A stretch of DNA of 59,076 nucleotides, from the IMG/VR virus record IMGVR_UViG_3300025466_000037, positions 1-59,076 of that record. One strand, 5' to 3'. Below the pieces are notes generated by a model. The model was not told where the DNA came from. It saw only the letters and a list, made by a program, of their open reading frames with translations, and ran no database searches. The translations under genes were made by a program, and so were the position numbers. This stretch comes from a virus. This document shows positions 11,908-55,438 of the stretch, piece after piece; position 1 is the first letter of the stretch; every line of letters begins with the position of its first letter.

Positions 11908-12141
11908 CTAGATACTATTAATCAATGTGCAAAGCTCTTCAACCGTTAACTCAACCTGCTCAGGCTTTATGGCTGATTCAGGGATCTTCTTACCAATCAA
12001 GTCCTCAGCATCAAACAGCACCTCAATGAATACCAGTGAGTCAAGCCCCAAGTCAGATACCCTAGCATCTGGCGTTATATTGTTTGGGTTGATGTTGTAC
12101 TTGTTAACCAGTAAATCTTTAAATTGGTCGAATGTAATCAT
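11908..12141 (-). CDS. acpP: Acyl carrier protein
   Basis: The 77-residue protein has the size and four-helix pattern of acyl carrier proteins. It shows the phosphopantetheine attachment motif LGLDSLVFIEV, with Ser35 as the expected modified residue, followed by an acidic helix II. These proteins carry acyl chains as thioesters for fatty-acid synthesis and acyl transfer. The gene lies between TerL and the giant polyvalent gene, about 20-35 bases from the latter, and has an AAAGGAAC ribosome site. No acyl-synthesis or acyltransferase gene is recognised beside it, so it probably relies on the host holo-ACP synthase and serves an unknown phage purpose. Confidence 0.88.
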   Translation of the reverse strand: MITFDQFKDLLVNKYNINPNNITPDARVSDLGLDSLVFIEVLFDAEDLIGKKIPESAIKPEQVELTVEELCTLINSI

Positions 12142-12165
12142 TTAGTTCCTTTTGGGTGGGGTGGT

Positions 12166-12276
12166 TCACATAAAGCAGTGTTTGTTACCAATTCGACTCT
12201 TAAACCATAAAAAATGATTGTTGAACGATGATGTGGCGCTAACCCACAACTCCACCCCATCGCTATCATACCGCAT
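12166..12276 (-). CDS. Possible 36-residue ORF after terL
   Basis: This short reading frame starts inside the last codons of terL and fills much of the 120-base gap before the acyl carrier gene. No good ribosome site is visible and no motif is recognised, so it may be chance. Otherwise the gap 12142-12265 holds only the ACP ribosome site. Confidence 0.25.
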   Translation of the reverse strand: MRYDSDGVELWVSATSSFNNHFLWFKSRIGNKHCFM

Positions 12277-13711
12277 ATGGATTGACCCTTGGTTGGGGGT
12301 TGGCATCAATGTAATCTTCCTCATCGTAGTCTTCACGTGGAGGTGGATCAATGTTCAGGAATCCTGCGTCTCTAAGCCATCTAAGAGCCTGTGTGAGCGA
12401 ATCAACGTAATCGTCATGTGTTGCGTCAGGGAACGCACAGATCTGGCTTATAGCCCCTTCTGCCCAGTCCCTTACATATCCTTTGTTCATGCTTGACTCT
12501 GGCACCCAAACCCTACCTGCCCGTATGATATTGGCAACAATTGATAACCGCTGAACTTTGTCTGCCTTGCCTGGGTTGTAGCTTTGTACGGGTAACTGTG
12601 CCCTTTGCAAGTCTTGGATCAAGCTGATGCCTGCGGCTTTGTCCTCCACCAGAATCATCTCAACTCGCTTCTTATCCTTGCCCTCACCGTATACAGTCTC
12701 AAACTCATCCATCACCTTGGGCTTGAGATCTGGGTATTGCAGGTGGTCTTGCCAGGCATCGAGGATGAGCACTGACATCGGACCATCCATCGGTTTGAAT
12801 ACACCGAAAGTGATACACGCTGTTGGGTCATTGTGCGCCTTCTCAGTGAATGCACAGTCATAGCTTTGCAAGATGAACTCAAACTTGGGCAGAGGCATTG
12901 GCTCACCCTGAGAGTTGTAGGCAGGGAATAGTTTGAACCATTTGCGCTTGACGATACCTGTTAGCTCAGGGTCTAAGATCTCAGCCAACACCTCCTGGCG
13001 ATACAGTGCAGACTCAGGGTCGTACTGCTCGATCTGCTTGCGGAAGTTTGCTGATAGGTTGTCAATGTTGGCGTAGGTGGATGCTGTGGTCAGGGCTACA
13101 TCACTCCCGTTTCTACCTACCAGATCAACAATCAGATCTTTGGGCTTGGGCGTTGTCGTACATACAACTTGGGTCTTGTCTCCCAAACGGATGGAGAAGC
13201 TGAGCAGATCCCAGGCTTCCTGTAGATAATCCCACGCCGCCAACTCATCTAGCCAACCCCCGTGGAACTGTGGCCCCCTGAAGCGCTCAGGCTCCGATGC
13301 GGGTATGCCTTTGATGATTGAGCCGTTGATCAGGGTAATCTCGTTATCGTCCTTCAGGTGCTTCTTAATCAAGATCTGAGGTATGACGTTGGTCAGTCCT
13401 GAGTCACCCATAAAGCACACATCCTTCAGGTCTGAGTGTGTTGGCGCTCCAACTAGCCACCGAGTCTTGGGATTAGTCCAAGCCTTCCAGAACGTCCACT
13501 CTGCCGCAAGCCTAGTCTTCCCTGCGCCCCGTCCACCGAGCACCATCCAAATAGACCAGTCCCAACTCGGGGGAACCTGGTGATCATGGGCAATACTCAG
13601 CCACTTGATCCTTGCGGCGTAAGCCATCTGCTCTTCAGGTGGGAGTACAGCGAAGTGAGCCTTCACCTCGGGGTCGGTCAATATCTCTATGACCTCATCA
13701 AGATCCTGCAT
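12266..13711 (-). CDS. terL: Terminase large subunit
   Basis: The 481-residue packaging motor ATPase/nuclease has a Walker A motif GGRGAGKT (59-66), an acidic Walker B-like WLDELAAWD and the coupling motif CTTTPKP. The C-terminal nuclease half contains QSYDCAFTEKAHNDPTA, ILVEDKAAG and HDDYVDS, the acidic residues expected in RNase H-like TerL nucleases. It moves DNA into the procapsid through the portal and cuts concatemers. It overlaps the terS stop by fourteen bases. Length and motifs look complete. Confidence 0.93.
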   Translation of the reverse strand: MQDLDEVIEILTDPEVKAHFAVLPPEEQMAYAARIKWLSIAHDHQVPPSWDWSIWMVLGGRGAGKTRLAAEWTFWKAWTNPKTRWLVGAPTHSDLKDVCFMGDSGLTNVIPQILIKKHLKDDNEITLINGSIIKGIPASEPERFRGPQFHGGWLDELAAWDYLQEAWDLLSFSIRLGDKTQVVCTTTPKPKDLIVDLVGRNGSDVALTTASTYANIDNLSANFRKQIEQYDPESALYRQEVLAEILDPELTGIVKRKWFKLFPAYNSQGEPMPLPKFEFILQSYDCAFTEKAHNDPTACITFGVFKPMDGPMSVLILDAWQDHLQYPDLKPKVMDEFETVYGEGKDKKRVEMILVEDKAAGISLIQDLQRAQLPVQSYNPGKADKVQRLSIVANIIRAGRVWVPESSMNKGYVRDWAEGAISQICAFPDATHDDYVDSLTQALRWLRDAGFLNIDPPPREDYDEEDYIDANPQPRVNPYAV

Positions 13712-14243
13712 TCGATGCCTGTTTTTTAAGGGTCAAATGCTCAACCACTGTATCCATTGCGCTCTTGGCTGTAACGACAATCTCGCTTTGCAGTGGGTTT
13801 TCCTTATCCCCTGCAATCGTTGTCCTATCCCCATACTTCTTAGGCTTGAGCTTCATAGCCGTCCATTTACGGGCATCTATGCGGTTTCTTTGCCATTGGA
13901 TGTAGGAGTTGCTCAGTTCCATCCTGATTAGCTCACCAGTCCTGCGGTCAATCACTGGCTCTGTATCTGGGGTTTCGTCAGCTATTTGGAGGATCTCATC
14001 AGCAATGGTGTCGGCTTGATCTTCCCGTGCACGTGCGTATTGCTCAGCAAACTCTGGATGAACAATCAACCACTCATAGATCGTAGCCTGACTTGGGAAC
14101 TTTCCTATCTTCTCATCCGCCTTCAGGATTTGTCTAACACTCATACCATTACTGATGAGGGTACAGATCTCTGCCGCTATTTGGGGCGTATATTTTGTTG
14201 GGCGTCCACCCTTGTTCTTGGGCTTTTCGGTTACGTTATCCAT
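13698..14243 (-). CDS. terS: Terminase small subunit
   Basis: The 181-residue protein has an N-terminal helix-turn-helix region beginning NKGGRPTKYTPQIAAEI. It contains QATIYEWLIVHPEFAEQYARA, followed by a helical oligomerisation region and a basic end (KPKKYGDRTTI). This is the usual pattern of small terminase subunits that recognise phage DNA and load TerL. The ATG at 14243 is chosen over a TTG at 14264. The next gene, terL, overlaps its end. Confidence 0.85.
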   Translation of the reverse strand: MDNVTEKPKNKGGRPTKYTPQIAAEICTLISNGMSVRQILKADEKIGKFPSQATIYEWLIVHPEFAEQYARAREDQADTIADEILQIADETPDTEPVIDRRTGELIRMELSNSYIQWQRNRIDARKWTAMKLKPKKYGDRTTIAGDKENPLQSEIVVTAKSAMDTVVEHLTLKKQASNAGS

Positions 14244-14284
14244 ATTATTCCAATGTCGAACCAAGTTAATGCCTGTATTGTATA

Positions 14285-14494
14285 TCAGGCGTTCTGGATT
14301 CGTCTATCCATGCGCCTTATTGTGGCTTTGTGCTGATCGTTCTCTATCTTCAGCGCTCTTACTTGGGCGTTCAGATACTTCATCCTGGCGCTTACATAGT
14401 CCAGATAGTCATTCATCTGTTGGAAGTCGGATTCAGTCTTTTGGGGATCGTCCATTAACTTCTTTGTGGCTGTTGTTTTCTTTGTTGCCATCAT
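14285..14494 (-). CDS. Small coiled-coil protein before terS
   Basis: This 69-residue protein has a Lys/Thr-rich N-terminus and a heptad-like helix (about 25-65, ending MDRRIQNA). It has a strong AGGAG ribosome site seven bases before the start. It is the first protein gene after the structured non-coding segment and directly precedes terS, so it may be a packaging or late-gene accessory protein. No family is recognised. Confidence 0.6.
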   Translation of the reverse strand: MMATKKTTATKKLMDDPQKTESDFQQMNDYLDYVSARMKYLNAQVRALKIENDQHKATIRRMDRRIQNA

Positions 14495-14740
14495 TAACTC
14501 CTAGTTATAGTTGTTGATGTCCTGCCTTGAACATTAACGCAGGTTACCAGTCTCAGGCTTTCGCCACACCAACAAGAATGAGGACTGTAGGTACGACCTG
14601 CACGTTACTTTAACTTCCCTGCATAGCCCTTTCGGGAGGTGGGAAAGCCTACAATCCTCATACTTGTTAGCTGTTGGCGGTATTAAGGATACTCATTTAA
14701 TGCCACAGACCTTCAGCTTGGACACCAACAAATAAGAAGA
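14495..14740 (-). ncRNA. Structured non-coding RNA candidate
   Basis: No convincing ORF lies here. Read on the minus strand, a long helix pairs 14648-14677 with 14569-14591, including TGAGGA with TCCTCA, TGTAGG with CCTACA, and AACAAG with CTTGTT. Inside it are CCC-GAAA-GGG (14627-14636), GTTA-AAG-TAAC, and CTTTCCC facing GGGAAG. Downstream are GGC-GAAA-GCC (14556-14565) and CCTGC/GCAGG (14521-14543). Two GNRA tetraloops appear only in the minus-strand reading, which is the direction of transcription. No known RNA family was recognised. Its site between early genes and the packaging operon would suit an antiterminator, processing element or packaging RNA. Confidence 0.55.
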
Positions 14741-14929
14741 CTAGATCATTGTCACCTTGTGCACAGGCTCCTCCCCAATCTTCTTACTTGTTGTCAGGCA
14801 CTTGTGCGCCTGATCCTTATCCCAACTCTCTCCACAGTCTGTACACCTGTAGATCACACCCTCTGTTACTTTAGTTACCCCTCTCTCTAAGTAGCGGCCT
14901 AGGAAGGTTCTGATCTTCTCTACGGGCAT
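14741..14929 (-). CDS. Small zinc-ribbon protein
   Basis: The 62-residue protein contains YRCTDCGESWDKDQAHKC, a CxxC...HxC arrangement expected to bind one zinc ion, flanked by basic N-terminal and polar C-terminal tails. Such small zinc ribbons often bind nucleic acid or host polymerase, but no target can be named. It ends the chain of small early genes, just upstream of the structured non-coding segment. Confidence 0.6.
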   Translation of the reverse strand: MPVEKIRTFLGRYLERGVTKVTEGVIYRCTDCGESWDKDQAHKCLTTSKKIGEEPVHKVTMI

Positions 14930-15020
14930 ACAATTCTCTGTAAGTAATTATAGCTACATTCCATAACCCGATGCCAACTAGCATTCCAAACACAAATATC
15001 CAGACTTCAGTCATAGTCAT
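14871..15020 (-). CDS. Single-pass membrane peptide (49 aa)
   Basis: The ORF encodes a 49-residue peptide with one hydrophobic span (about 7-26, VWIFVFGMLVGIGLWNVAII) and a basic tail (YARREDQ...RERGN), predicting an N-out, C-in inner membrane peptide. It overlaps the preceding tiny ORF by fourteen bases and the start of the zinc-ribbon ORF by about sixty. The ribosome site is weak, so the call rests on hydrophobic pattern and coupling. Confidence 0.5.
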   Translation of the reverse strand: MTMTEVWIFVFGMLVGIGLWNVAIITYRELYARREDQNLPRPLLRERGN

Positions 15021-15114
15021 ATCCAGTTACCAAGCAAAGGATAAAGTCAATTATCAGCAATATTGCCATGATGGGTAGTACAGTCATTGCAAGATTAAAT
15101 AAGAGGTCACGCAT
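15007..15114 (-). CDS. Single-pass membrane peptide (35 aa)
   Basis: The 35-residue peptide starts MRDLLFNLAMTV and is almost entirely hydrophobic from residue 4 to 28. Its start overlaps the stop of the 15107-15292 gene by eight bases and its end overlaps the next membrane ORF, as in coupled translation. Function unknown. Confidence 0.5.
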   Translation of the reverse strand: MRDLLFNLAMTVLPIMAILLIIDFILCLVTGYDYD

Positions 15115-15292
15115 CAAGTGTCTCCTTGAGGTTATCTACCAACTGCTGATTGGCTACCCAATAAAGGATAGGCATCTGAGCATTTGGCATATAGAATTTT
15201 ACCACGATTGAGTCATCAATGAGTAAATTTTGAAAGCCTTTTGCACCTTCTTCAGTCTCAAATATTCCGCCAATCATTGCTATATCTTTCAT
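15107..15292 (-). CDS. Small hypothetical protein
   Basis: This 61-residue soluble-looking protein begins MKDIAMIGGIFETEEGAKG. The ATG at 15292 is chosen over upstream starts because it forms an ATGA overlap with the preceding gene and has a GGAG-type site. No family recognised. Confidence 0.55.
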   Translation of the reverse strand: MKDIAMIGGIFETEEGAKGFQNLLIDDSIVVKFYMPNAQMPILYWVANQQLVDNLKETLDA

Positions 15293-15537
15293 GTGTTTTT
15301 CTCCTTGAGTTTGGCTTCGATGGCCTCCAATGTTGATGCGGCAACACGGTGAAACCCAATAGGCGTATATGGATACCAATGCAACACCCAGACGCTATCT
15401 TCCGCTACAGCCTTATGCCATTCTTCTGGTGAAACAAAAAAGTCGGCTTCATAAAATTCTTCAACAGTTTCGTAAACATCACGGTGTTCATTGTGACTCA
15501 GATATAAACCACATTTGTGTTCTGGTAACCAGTTCAT
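15289..15537 (-). CDS. Small hypothetical protein
   Basis: The 82-residue protein is rich in aromatic and acidic residues (VYETVEEFYEADFF). Its C-terminus, EAIEAKLKEKNT, resembles the ends of the modular proteins at 16291-16896 and 17087-17494, so it probably shares their last module. It joins both neighbours by ATGA overlaps. Confidence 0.58.
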   Translation of the reverse strand: MNWLPEHKCGLYLSHNEHRDVYETVEEFYEADFFVSPEEWHKAVAEDSVWVLHWYPYTPIGFHRVAASTLEAIEAKLKEKNT

Positions 15538-15707
15538 GTGTTCTTTTCCTTAAAAAATTCGTTAAAAACTTTTGCACATATTTCATCCCATCTATCTTGC
15601 GAATATTTTTTATTTGCAATGTCTTCATCTTCAGTCACAGGTATCCAATTGTCATTTTCATATTTATACCACCAAGGTTTACCGTCTTTATTCCCCAGAA
15701 ACAACAT
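15534..15707 (-). CDS. Small hypothetical protein (57 aa)
   Basis: The ORF encodes MLFLGNKDGKPWWYKYENDN followed by a charged, Lys/Asp-rich half. It ends in an ATGA overlap with the next gene and starts inside the end of the preceding membrane ORF. It fills a stretch with no other coding candidate. It has no membrane segment and no recognised family. Confidence 0.58.
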   Translation of the reverse strand: MLFLGNKDGKPWWYKYENDNWIPVTEDEDIANKKYSQDRWDEICAKVFNEFFKEKNT

Positions 15708-15840
15708 GGTTCTTATCCTTTAATTTAGCTTTTCTTTCTTTGCTAATAAAATGCGTGGTCAAAATAAAACCAAGCAAAACGCCATCAACAATACTTAACC
15801 CAATGATTAAAAAAATTTGTCCGTATGTAAATGTAATCAT
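15688..15840 (-). CDS. Single-pass membrane peptide (50 aa)
   Basis: The 50-residue peptide has a hydrophobic span at about 3-31 and a Lys-rich tail (SKERKAKLKDK), predicting a small inner-membrane protein with a cytosolic tail. An ATGA overlap with the 15837-16298 gene supports its start. It is one of five tiny membrane ORFs in this cluster. Confidence 0.55.
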   Translation of the reverse strand: MITFTYGQIFLIIGLSIVDGVLLGFILTTHFISKERKAKLKDKNHVVSGE

Positions 15841-16298
15841 GTGTTCTTATTCTTTAATTTATCTTCTGTTTCTTTAGCAAAAGCCATAAACCAACTAAAC
15901 AACCAAGCGTTTTGTTCCCCATTATTTAACGGAACTCCATGCCTTGCGCTCCAATCAATTTCAGGACAAGTTTTTCCTTTTATAACTATTAACTCTTCCT
16001 CAGTCAACCCTACCCATTCTTTAGTTTGTGGTGTGGTGTAAAGAGGAATCTGAAACATTCTCGGGGTAAATGAACCACGCTTATCATGCTCTGCTTTTAA
16101 GTCTTTGTGCATAAACTCTGCGTGTATATCGTTGCTGTCCAACCATCCCACAGGCTCATCCTGCTCTTGATTTAGTGCTTCTTCTAGAGCTTTAATAGCA
16201 TTTTTAGCTCTATCTGCCCAATCACCACTAATTATTTCAACGTGATACCAAGCGGTTTCCAACGCCTTTAACGCTAGTTCCATTGCTTCTTTACTCAT
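15837..16298 (-). CDS. Modular early protein A (MSKEAMELALKALE type)
   Basis: The 153-residue protein opens with MSKEAMELALKALE and an amphipathic helix ending in ALEEALNQEQDEPVGW. A middle part leads to YTTPQTKEWVGLTEEEL. The first block matches 17087-17494, and the last block matches 16291-16896. Such shuffled small proteins are common in Proteobacteria phages, but their function is not known. It overlaps both neighbours. Confidence 0.65.
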   Translation of the reverse strand: MSKEAMELALKALETAWYHVEIISGDWADRAKNAIKALEEALNQEQDEPVGWLDSNDIHAEFMHKDLKAEHDKRGSFTPRMFQIPLYTTPQTKEWVGLTEEELIVIKGKTCPEIDWSARHGVPLNNGEQNAWLFSWFMAFAKETEDKLKNKNT

Positions 16299-16896
16299 GT
16301 GTTTTTTCCTTTAATTTAGCTTCAACTAAATAACATAATTCTTCCCAATGTGGGGTTTTAGAAGCAAATTCGGACATATCTTCCTTAGTTAGTCCTACCC
16401 ATTTTTTAGTTTGTGGTGTGGTGTAGAGCTTTGTGCCAGGCTTCAAGTCTCTGTAAAGCAAACCTGTACTCCAGTCATGATCGGACACTTCGCCAACAGG
16501 CTCACCCTGCTCTGGAGGCTCCCAAAACTCACATTCACATACATATCTATCTTCACTATGACTAGCATTACGGACAAATCCATGTGGTGCATCTGGATGT
16601 GTTTTACATTTAGGTTCACCTTGCTCTTGCTTTAGTGCTTCCGCTTTTAATTGTTGCGCATGTTCCATCTGTTGTTTTTGCCACTCAACATTTTCTTTTG
16701 GGTATTGCAACAAAACTTCATTATTTGAGCTTGCTTGTTCTTTTTTTGATGATGGGCCAAAAATAGGAAACATTCTGACAACATCTATTTTTGAATAAGG
16801 AAACATTTCTTCATAAGGATAATTTTTAGGCAACTCATCTTCAAAAATCCACGCCACAGGCTCATCTTGCTCTTGTTTCATTACTTCTTTAGTCAT
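16291..16896 (-). CDS. Modular early protein B (rearranged paralogue)
   Basis: The 201-residue protein starts MTKEVMKQEQDEPVAW, so the start block runs straight into the EQDEPV block that lies some thirty residues further on in protein A. It carries the QEQxEP motif three times (EQDEPV, QEQGEPK, EQGEPV), a Cys/His cluster (CKTHPDAPHGF and YVCECEFWEPP), and then YTTPQTKKWVGLTKED. It looks built by recombination between repeated coding modules. Function unknown. Confidence 0.62.
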   Translation of the reverse strand: MTKEVMKQEQDEPVAWIFEDELPKNYPYEEMFPYSKIDVVRMFPIFGPSSKKEQASSNNEVLLQYPKENVEWQKQQMEHAQQLKAEALKQEQGEPKCKTHPDAPHGFVRNASHSEDRYVCECEFWEPPEQGEPVGEVSDHDWSTGLLYRDLKPGTKLYTTPQTKKWVGLTKEDMSEFASKTPHWEELCYLVEAKLKEKTHE

Positions 16897-17090
16897 TCTT
16901 GAACCCTTGCTCTAATTTCCATAGCTATATCATGCGCATAATCTAAGTAAAGTTCATCCGCTACCTTGGCACATTCTTCATTTTCAATCTTTGCTAGTTC
17001 TTTAGCAAAACTCTCAATTACATCTGGAGTATAAAATTCATCTATACCAGGCATAAATTTCTCTGCAAGTGTTAATATTTCTTTAGTCAT
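16893..17090 (-). CDS. Small early protein, AKVADEL family
   Basis: This 65-residue protein starts MTKEILTLAEKF and ends with ENEECAKVADELYLDYAHDIAMEIRARVQE-type helices. That end is shared with the 24654-24875 protein (EREECAKVCDAY...AEAIRARGQE) and more loosely with those at 24868-25122 and 28580-28819. It is coupled to both neighbours by short overlaps. Confidence 0.6.
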   Translation of the reverse strand: MTKEILTLAEKFMPGIDEFYTPDVIESFAKELAKIENEECAKVADELYLDYAHDIAMEIRARVQE

Positions 17091-17494
17091 GTATTGCGCT
17101 CCTTAATCTTAGCTTCTATACGCCTTGCATCAAGTAATAGCTGGTCGTGGTTATAGTCAGGATCTCCTCTGTATGTACCAAAGATGCCAAAGATATCCTC
17201 ATCAGTCAACCCTACCCATGTGCGTTGTTGTGGTGTGGTGTCTTCGTACTTGTCCAATACCTCACGTAGCTTTTCAAAACCACCTACCGTATCAGACATA
17301 GCGATTAACTTTGCGTTTTGAACACGGGCAATCCGTTCCCAATCTGTCGTTACAGGCTCAACCTGCTCTTTCTTTAGTGCATCTTCTAAGGCATCAATGG
17401 TTGCATAAAACTTTCTATCAGTTTCAGGATTAAATCCCAAAGGAGATGTATTTTTCAACGCCTCAAGCGCTTGTTTCATTACTTCTTTAGTCAT
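17087..17494 (-). CDS. Modular early protein C (MTKEVMKQALEAL type)
   Basis: The 135-residue protein starts MTKEVMKQALEALKN and has the ALEDALKKEQVEPV block. It then carries a helical segment and TPQQRTWVGLTDEDIFGIFG, ending EAKIKERNT. The ATG at 17494 has a GAGAGGAA ribosome site and is preferred to the upstream frame opening at 17563. It is a paralogue of proteins A and B. Confidence 0.65.
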   Translation of the reverse strand: MTKEVMKQALEALKNTSPLGFNPETDRKFYATIDALEDALKKEQVEPVTTDWERIARVQNAKLIAMSDTVGGFEKLREVLDKYEDTTPQQRTWVGLTDEDIFGIFGTYRGDPDYNHDQLLLDARRIEAKIKERNT

Positions 17495-17502
17495 TTCCTC
17501 TC

Positions 17503-17658
17503 CTATTGAGTTCTGTAAAAAATAGTGAGTATCAATCCAACTTGTCCCAAAGCCCAACCACAAAATGCTACCCCTTGCGCTACATCACCTTTTTTAAAAA
17601 AATCAAACGCACAATAAACATAAATTATAAAAATAACAATCAAGCCATAAATACTCAT
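17503..17658 (-). CDS. Small membrane protein (51 aa)
   Basis: The 51-residue protein has two hydrophobic stretches, MSIYGLIVIFIIYVYCAF and GVAFCGWALGQVGLILTIF, separated by KKGD, so it is probably a two-span hairpin in the inner membrane. Its start forms an ATGA overlap with the preceding gene. Function unknown. Confidence 0.58.
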   Translation of the reverse strand: MSIYGLIVIFIIYVYCAFDFFKKGDVAQGVAFCGWALGQVGLILTIFYRTQ

Positions 17659-54031: not shown

Positions 54032-55438
54032 TTACTTCTTGGCTCTACCGCCGTGCTTTCTAACCATTTCAGGATTTACAAAACCTCTTCCTGCGCCTGC
54101 ACTTCTTGGAGTAATCCTTGAAGCTTCAGCGTAAGAAGCGGAATCTCTAGCCCTTTGCTTAGCATCAGCAACGTCTTGTGGAGATACATCTCTCATATTT
54201 TGACCAGGAGCAAATTCCATCATCCTTCGATCATAATCAGATATAGCTCCCCCATCCGCATGATGCTTTACTTGTCCACCCTTTTTGAAGGTGCCAGACA
54301 AGCGAGTTATCGCAACTGGTGGAGATGCAGGCTTTTTACCTTGAGGCATAGCCACAGCAGAACCCTGTTTATTAACAGCGCCCCCCGTGGCGAAGTGCTT
54401 TTTTGAAGCCTTGCCTCCGTGCTTAAAGCCACCTGCATTACCTTCCTTGACAGCACCAGTAGTCTGCATACGCACACCAGGCTTAGTTGTGTCAGCAGGA
54501 CGGTTTTCCCAGTCACCACCTTCAACAGTGTCTTTCAGGTTAAGGTCAGGAGCAACATTGCCACCCTTAGCGTAGTGGTGTTTGCCACCATGCTTGTGAT
54601 GAGCTTTTCCGCCGTGTTTAAATCCACCTGCGTTTGACTCTTTTACCTCGCCAGTACCGTGTACTGAATCATGGTGTTCGCCATCAACCATCATTGTGTT
54701 TTCAAACTTCTTAGCAACATTGTCGGAAACAGTGCCACCAATAGCGTACTTACCGCCTTTGCACATAGCCTTGTGGTGCTCATGAGAACCCTCTGGATGA
54801 CCAGAAATCTTATGAACTTTACCACCATGCTTGAAACCACCTGCATTTCCTTCCTTAACCATGCCAGTGCCATGCACTGAATCATGGTGCTCACCGTCAT
54901 GCATTTCGGTTTCTAAGAACTTTTTAGGTGCTTTTTCGTCAGTAGTCTTAGTCTCAAACTTGTCGATCCCTTTGCCCATTGCTGAGCCACCTTTAGCAAA
55001 ATGCTTCTTAGCGTGACCGCCTTTTTTCAGACCATGATGAGCCTTTCCTGCCTTTTCATGCTCGTGATGCTTAAGTTCTTTTTCAACTTTTTTGATCTCA
55101 TGCATTTCAGCTTTGTGCTCTTTACCGCCTTCAGCTTTTCCGCCCTTCTTCATCAAAGGAGTTGGCATACCCTTCATCGCCGCCCTACGAGCCGCAAGAG
55201 CACCCATCTTAGGAGCCATAGCAGGAGCCATTCCACCACGAGCAGGCAGAGTGGTTGCACCGTCCATCATTCCGCCCATAGCTTTGTGCATAGTCTTATG
55301 ACCATGCTCTTCGTGCTTTCCACCCTTTTTATGAGTAGCAGATCCACCTTTTTTGAGCTTCAGAATAACTGAAGGCTCATCGGTGATCATCTTTGGCATT
55401 TGGCTGAAACCGCCTGCCCCTTTTGTTGCTTTAGCCAT
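54032..55438 (-). CDS. His/Lys/Gly-rich repetitive virion protein
   Basis: The 468-residue protein has extreme composition. It contains repeats of VKEGNAGGFKHGGK (three full or near copies), EHHDSVHGTG (twice) and many KHGGK, KGG and YAKGG units, ending HGGRAKK. It lies in the structural operon close to the capsid gene. A disordered basic, His-rich protein could bind packaged DNA or metal ions; this is inference. No folded domain is seen. Confidence 0.6.
   Translation of the reverse strand: MAKATKGAGGFSQMPKMITDEPSVILKLKKGGSATHKKGGKHEEHGHKTMHKAMGGMMDGATTLPARGGMAPAMAPKMGALAARRAAMKGMPTPLMKKGGKAEGGKEHKAEMHEIKKVEKELKHHEHEKAGKAHHGLKKGGHAKKHFAKGGSAMGKGIDKFETKTTDEKAPKKFLETEMHDGEHHDSVHGTGMVKEGNAGGFKHGGKVHKISGHPEGSHEHHKAMCKGGKYAIGGTVSDNVAKKFENTMMVDGEHHDSVHGTGEVKESNAGGFKHGGKAHHKHGGKHHYAKGGNVAPDLNLKDTVEGGDWENRPADTTKPGVRMQTTGAVKEGNAGGFKHGGKASKKHFATGGAVNKQGSAVAMPQGKKPASPPVAITRLSGTFKKGGQVKHHADGGAISDYDRRMMEFAPGQNMRDVSPQDVADAKQRARDSASYAEASRITPRSAGAGRGFVNPEMVRKHGGRAKK

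Follow-up and report, generated by a model that had tools for sequence, protein, structure and literature searches.

Several described systems share features with the RNA arrays reported here. GOLLD and ROOL RNAs occur in phages near tRNAs. They are likewise large ornate noncoding RNAs, and the name GOLLD records a lake origin in the accounts available; unlike the arrays they are large single families, and no Rfam match to them was found in the scanned loci. Integron cassettes and shufflons are exchangeable units between repeated sites. The arrays differ from both in that they show no inversion, consist of noncoding RNA units and keep a fixed strand. TIGR arrays are, in the accessible part of their description, also repeated RNA arrays in phages, whereas the variable parts here are folded domains of tens of nucleotides that are common to phages. 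The putRNA of HK022 resembles the arrays in placing hairpins at the head of a phage operon, but in the accessible text of one report it is one element of ~70 nt with two stem-loops (PMC9378689). STnc100 and PasD have the same stem-closed domain with inner hairpins, lie beside or inside arrays of like grammar (Klebsiella phage P01 and P1) and are expressed. They differ in being described, in the accessible parts of the sources, as single sRNAs without an alternating array or domain exchange. In EHEC, RNA-seq detected STnc100 copies, one of which also appeared on a Northern blot (PMC5331693, accessible part), and PasD and STnc100 are reported to be of common ancestry (PMC13192938, accessible part). 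The array organization has no counterpart in Rfam 15 or in the open-access papers searched. Within this scope we rate it as new in kind, with its enteric side partly known as STnc100 and PasD.

The DNA analyzed here, referred to as the window, is a viral stretch of 59,076 nt (IMG/VR record IMGVR_UViG_3300025466_000037). Two minus-strand ORFs at 14285-14494 and 14741-14929 bound a gap of 246 nt (14495-14740), for which an earlier note had proposed a structured RNA on the transcribed strand. Folding of the minus strand bears this out, with -85.4 kcal/mol against -65.1 +/- 4.6 for dinucleotide shuffles (z -4.43; 0 of 200 equal). The plus strand is also well folded (z -3.77) because inverted repeats fold on both strands; therefore, energy alone cannot pick the strand. 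The helix of about 20 pairs claimed for the gap was located in the sequence, where AACAAG, ATGAGGATT and GTAGG pair with CCTAC, AGTCCTCAT and CTTGTT. The GNRA hairpin placed within it is there as sequence (CCC-GAAA-GGG), but is present in the centroid only and absent from the minimum-energy fold. A second GAAA hairpin (GGC-GAAA-GCC) and a five-pair stem (CCTGC/GCAGG), both foreseen, were found and make up the domain adjoining the helix.

The gap is real, but the feature is larger than the 14521-14680 first noted. Four domains, A1, B1, A2 and B2 in this order, occupy 14513-14792 on the minus strand and follow an X'/X and A/B grammar (Table 1). The arms of the A1 domain covary when compared with three relatives (L005, L012 and L014). 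The A2 domain corresponds to the 20-pair helix; its module contains GTAGG/CCTAC and CCC-GAAA-GGG, and recurs in L010, there with ACGGG/CCCAT. The B2 module is also found in L012, L087 and L107, and the B1 module in L008 and L116, with a diverged copy in L238. The predicted B1 domain is backed by its relatives only, as its folding energy gives no support. Rfam 15 returned no match at gathering score over the whole window, and no known self-cleaving ribozyme or riboswitch family matched in the window or locally. Matches to queA, FourU and mir-3552 near the gap, collected up to E 10, fall far under the gathering scores and are at chance level. With the gap as query, blastn gave no hit among phages or plasmids.

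Table 1. Features of the array locus and of the second element in the window
Feature	Position	Strand	Description
62-aa ORF	14741-14929	-	shares its 3' end, stop codon included, with the first A domain; no PHROG match
A1 domain	14727-14792	-	arms AACAAGTAAGAAGATT / AGTCTTCTTATTTGTT, 34-nt module between; fold z -2.45
B1 domain	14673-14729	-	predicted closing stem GTTGGTG/CGCCAAC; fold alone z +0.78
A2 domain	14571-14668	-	arms AACAAGTATGAGGATT / AGTCCTCATTCTTGTT, 66-nt module; z -2.96
B2 domain	14513-14573	-	closing stem GTTGGTGT/ACATCAAC; GGC-GAAA-GCC and CCTGC/GCAGG hairpins; z -2.26
69-aa gene	14285-14494	-	start immediately follows the array; AACTAGGAGTTAATG contains its ribosome site; no PHROG match
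Terminase small subunit (terS)	13698-14264	-	PHROG 1482, E 1.1e-40; second gene after the array
Second element, B-type domain	12148-12264	-	TTAGC/TGCTTTAT family; model R1, 53.2 bits, E 8.6e-13

The grammar consists of two alternating blocks, X' (CACCAACAGCTAACAAGTATGAGGATT and variants) and X (AGTCCTCATTCTTGTTGGTG), which are near inverse complements. An A domain is closed by X' and the next X, and a B domain by X and the next X'. A search with terS yielded 80 viral loci, and alignment of the stretch upstream of the same genes showed conserved flanks around a gap that differs block by block. The number of domains varies, from one A and one B each in L005 and L013 to three of each in L014. Patterns derived from the blocks identified many further arrays on viral contigs. 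The parsed set holds 316 sequences (the window and 315 loci, copies included), 103 of which contain 157 A units; counts over this set are not frequencies, because the majority of loci were retrieved with patterns taken from the array. Eight of the 157 units were removed because they were the same inverted repeats read in reverse. The terS-fetched loci are the least biased set, and an A unit is present in 22 of the 80, many being near-copies of the window. Distinct arrays number 67 and carry 90 A units, 81 of which are followed by a B closing arm. There are 55 distinct arm pairs and 74 distinct A modules, and the modules fall into 33 families (65% identity), of which 18 have multiple members. 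A modules recur in varied combinations and ahead of differing genes. The 34-nt module of the window A1 domain, for example, lies ahead of terS, ahead of a ParB-like/methyltransferase gene in L110, and elsewhere.

A scan of bacterial genomes with the A-unit pattern gave no match. The B-domain pattern found nine stretches there, and R1, a covariance model built from B family A1, scores seven of these at 45.7 bits or more; the other two, near 16-17 bits, are likely chance. R1 also identifies the second element of the window, which lies between terL and a 77-aa ACP-like ORF and has TATGAT on its upstream side and a ribosome site downstream. The fold of this element alone is weak (z -1.60). The 77-aa ORF (11908-12141, minus), which adjoins terL, has the look of an acyl carrier protein by eye (GLDSL) and no PHROG match.

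The paired arms had been read as those of a selected RNA, and a covariation check on the gaps upstream of terS in related phages had been suggested. The check was run, and the A1 and A2 stems of the window show compensatory changes, which back this reading. Across the 55 distinct A-arm pairs, 91.8% of cells pair, compared with 84.5% in shuffles, and 61 cells are double-changed (shuffle mean 20.6, maximum 32). Of these arm pairs, 49 conserve a T.G pair. The alignment of B family A1 comprises 53 sequences from 104 extracted, and its three helices contain 198 double-changed cells against 61.8 (0 of 500 shuffles), with slid partners giving at most 92. B family A2, with 17 sequences from lake and enteric phages, has 99.4% of cells paired and 39 double-changed against 10.9 (0 of 500 shuffles); its structure was drawn from the same sequences, which gives it an advantage over slid controls. 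The loop-loop pairing of this family hardly varies and is without covariation support. A layout of two hairpins was scored in 70 B units, and both hairpins are present in 24, compared with 6.7 in shuffles (maximum 14). A folded RNA on the transcribed strand is well supported by these sequence comparisons.

Closely related phages differ by whole domains. The flanks of L182 (200 nt on each side) are 0.98-0.99 identical to those of L187, L191, L194 and L199, and the arrays only 0.68-0.81, as entire domains have been swapped out or are absent. The array of L001 matches that of the window exactly, and L001 has flanks 1.00 and 0.96 identical to those of L008, with an array identity of 0.70. More distant relatives have upstream flanks of 0.85-0.94, downstream flanks of 0.86-0.90 and arrays of 0.44-0.63; the downstream value of 0.41 for L107 stands apart, as that contig ends early. 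None of the 74 A modules is inverted, as judged by the lack of any 16-mer in common with the reverse complement of an A module or B stretch, and none occupies a B slot. Four apparent A modules in B stretches proved to be located past the B end, within the next A unit. The exchange of domains therefore preserves both orientation and slot. Entire domains are swapped or dropped at the stems, and the A and B slots hold interchangeable domains that are common to many phages.

The alternation of inverse blocks, with exchange of the stretch between them, could also indicate a DNA-level element, in which the inverted repeats serve a recombinase in a shufflon- or attC-like manner and the modules are cargo. 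We regard this as quite unlikely. It is disfavored because module orientation is fixed, and, in addition, the kept T.G pairs favor one strand as RNA and the interiors of the domains covary.

In 44 of the 67 arrays, the longest ORF close downstream (at least 80 aa, with a start within 450 nt) lies on the same strand; in 11 it lies on the other strand, and 12 arrays have none. Placement at an early/late boundary, as the earlier note had it, is true of the window, where terS lies downstream, and likewise of HK629, where the array is flanked by the annotated pR' and the holin gene. By PHROG match, the large gene closest to the array is terS in the window and in L105, L166, L190, L244, L290 and L241, which would suit a terS-specific leader or a DNA-packaging RNA. 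Other arrays, however, precede primase (L180), helicase, O-like replication (L188, L227), ParB-like/methyltransferase and Dps-like genes, and the second element of the window precedes the ACP-like gene. Because arrays also precede unrelated genes, a terS leader or packaging RNA is not their common function. This proposal is contradicted as a general function, and we consider it very improbable.

Antitermination is the main rival to the reading we favor below. As in put-mediated processive antitermination, in which the RNA suppresses pausing and termination in cis and needs no protein factors, nascent array RNA would modify RNA polymerase and allow read-through of terminators. The arrays stand at operon heads before both early genes (the primase and O-like genes) and late genes (terS in the window, and the pR'-holin interval of HK629). 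Among 114 B family A1 domains, 32 have a TATAAT box (at most one mismatch) 24-40 nt ahead of the TTAGC motif, compared with a mean of 9.2 and a maximum of 19 in 200 mononucleotide shuffles. In the accessible text on HK022, putL is located just downstream of PL (PMC9378689). Against antitermination, the arrays vary in length and contain many differing domains rather than one conserved element, the array of the window overlaps the preceding ORF, and that of P1 comes after tRNA genes. R1 had no match in the HK022 stretch L319, in whose record put sites are not annotated. Comparison of eight array regions with L319 gave one weak 26-nt match and a near-identical stretch between the array and the holin gene of L316. 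The put-like antiterminator of the earlier note is favored by the promoter-like box just ahead of many elements, but R1 had no match, and the arrays no decisive one, in the HK022 stretch tested; we hold it to be a serious but doubtful alternative.

The arrays are not confined to lake phages. B family A2 joins lake arrays with P1 and Bas77 of E. coli, STGO-35-1 of Salmonella, phiPLPE of Iodobacter, phiEt88 of Erwinia, Klebsiella phage P01 and HK629. The P1 array sits directly after the genes for tRNA-Asn and tRNA-Thr, on a stretch for which the P1 record has no RNA annotation, and the array of SfV lies downstream of cI. Matches to the P1 stretch occur in 345 of 50,697 phage records and in 3127 of 5426 E. 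coli genomes, many of the latter through a 28-nt piece; at 80% coverage only 5 phage records and 258 E. coli genomes remain. The STnc100 model (RF02076) aligns with the 3' portion of the array in Klebsiella phage P01 at 53.6 bits, which reaches the gathering score, and gives 33.9 bits (E 8e-4), under threshold, with the last B domain of P1. These two matches and the reported common ancestry of PasD and STnc100 (PMC13192938, accessible part) would agree with the arrays being precursors of base-pairing sRNAs, of which STnc100 and the Pas sRNAs are a domesticated enteric form. This interpretation appears unlikely to us. The array of the window is without an Rfam match; STnc100 in particular had none in the window at gathering score and none up to E 10 over 14200-15100. 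Furthermore, conservation in both B families falls on short loops and on paired helices and reveals no seed region.

Some domains resemble tRNA. The helices of B family A2 have 7, 4 and 5 bp, the 5-bp helix abuts the closing stem, and two loops can pair. These are the stem lengths of tRNA. Five T-arm-like hairpins occur in the eight named-phage arrays against 0.09 in shuffles; the 67 freshwater and marine arrays have one, which is not significant (shuffle mean 0.10, maximum 2). tRNAs adjoin the arrays of P1, STGO-35-1 and phiEt88, and lie within 700 nt of only six of the 67 arrays. Because T-arm-like hairpins are rare in the freshwater and marine set and so few arrays are near a tRNA, tRNA mimicry may be limited to some domains.

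Our best explanation combines the cassette array of RNA domains with a trans-acting role, in which the domains would be baits for host RNA-handling factors; we advance it tentatively, at somewhat less than even confidence. Transcription at the head of phage operons would yield the array, that of the window included, as a leader or intercistronic RNA, with constant stems insulating the domains such that each folds by itself. Once transcribed, the domains would engage structured-RNA-handling factors of the host as baits or mimics; these factors would probably be tRNA-handling ones, tRNA-targeting defenses among them. A swap of domains at the common stems would refit the set to a new host. We thus favor, with modest confidence, trans-acting, tRNA-like baits exchanged in an arms race. 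The position at operon heads fits a cis-acting role equally, and the fast replacement of domains could reflect drift in a tolerant site. A broader proposal, which we offer as speculative, is that tailed phages, ranging from those of lakes and the sea to P1 and the lambdoid phages, share a combinatorial library of tRNA-like and other RNA domains. Swapped like gene cassettes on a common chassis, these domains would serve to intercept host translation factors and tRNA-directed defenses, thereby forming an RNA counterpart of an anti-defense island.

If the trans-acting explanation is correct, phages carry a widespread class of RNA that has escaped notice, even in P1, and STnc100 and PasD, now separate sRNAs, would gain a common phage origin. 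Because the grammar is simple, a computational catalogue of the arrays is feasible. Near-identical phages that have exchanged single domains amount to a natural experiment, in which each domain would be a candidate inhibitor or regulator.

Several minor features were observed near the arrays. The six arrays with a tRNA within 700 nt (L118, L140, L154, L221, L241 and L073) have one CAU-type tRNA each, that of L140 being an odd four-base call. Modules containing GGGCTCATAACCC (SfV, L318 array) and GGGTTCATATCCC (P1, L311 array) resemble the anticodon arm of initiator tRNA. A tmRNA-like reading frame (GCAAACGAT...) is present upstream of the arrays at L311:875, L312:1292, L313:1325 and L314:1154, and no such frame was found near the other 67 arrays. 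It reads ANDDLMMVAA* in P1, ANDDVVLMAA* in STGO-35-1 and Bas77 and, by eye, ANDNTFLAVA* in Klebsiella phage P01. P1 and P01 match Rfam tmRNA_permuted under threshold only, and the L312 stretch with this frame matches 770 of 50,697 phage records. Two further RNAs follow arrays: Betaproteobacteria-1 RNA (RF02932) at L143:1238-1355, about 160 nt after the array, and int-alpA RNA (RF02996, 39.3 bits) at L188:6348-6416. In the window itself, small paralogous ORFs lie in series at 15289-17563 (minus), where their starts recur and so does a WVGLT-like stretch, and positions 54411-54938 contain repeats of 50-127 nt with 70-78% identity, which are probably coding repeats.
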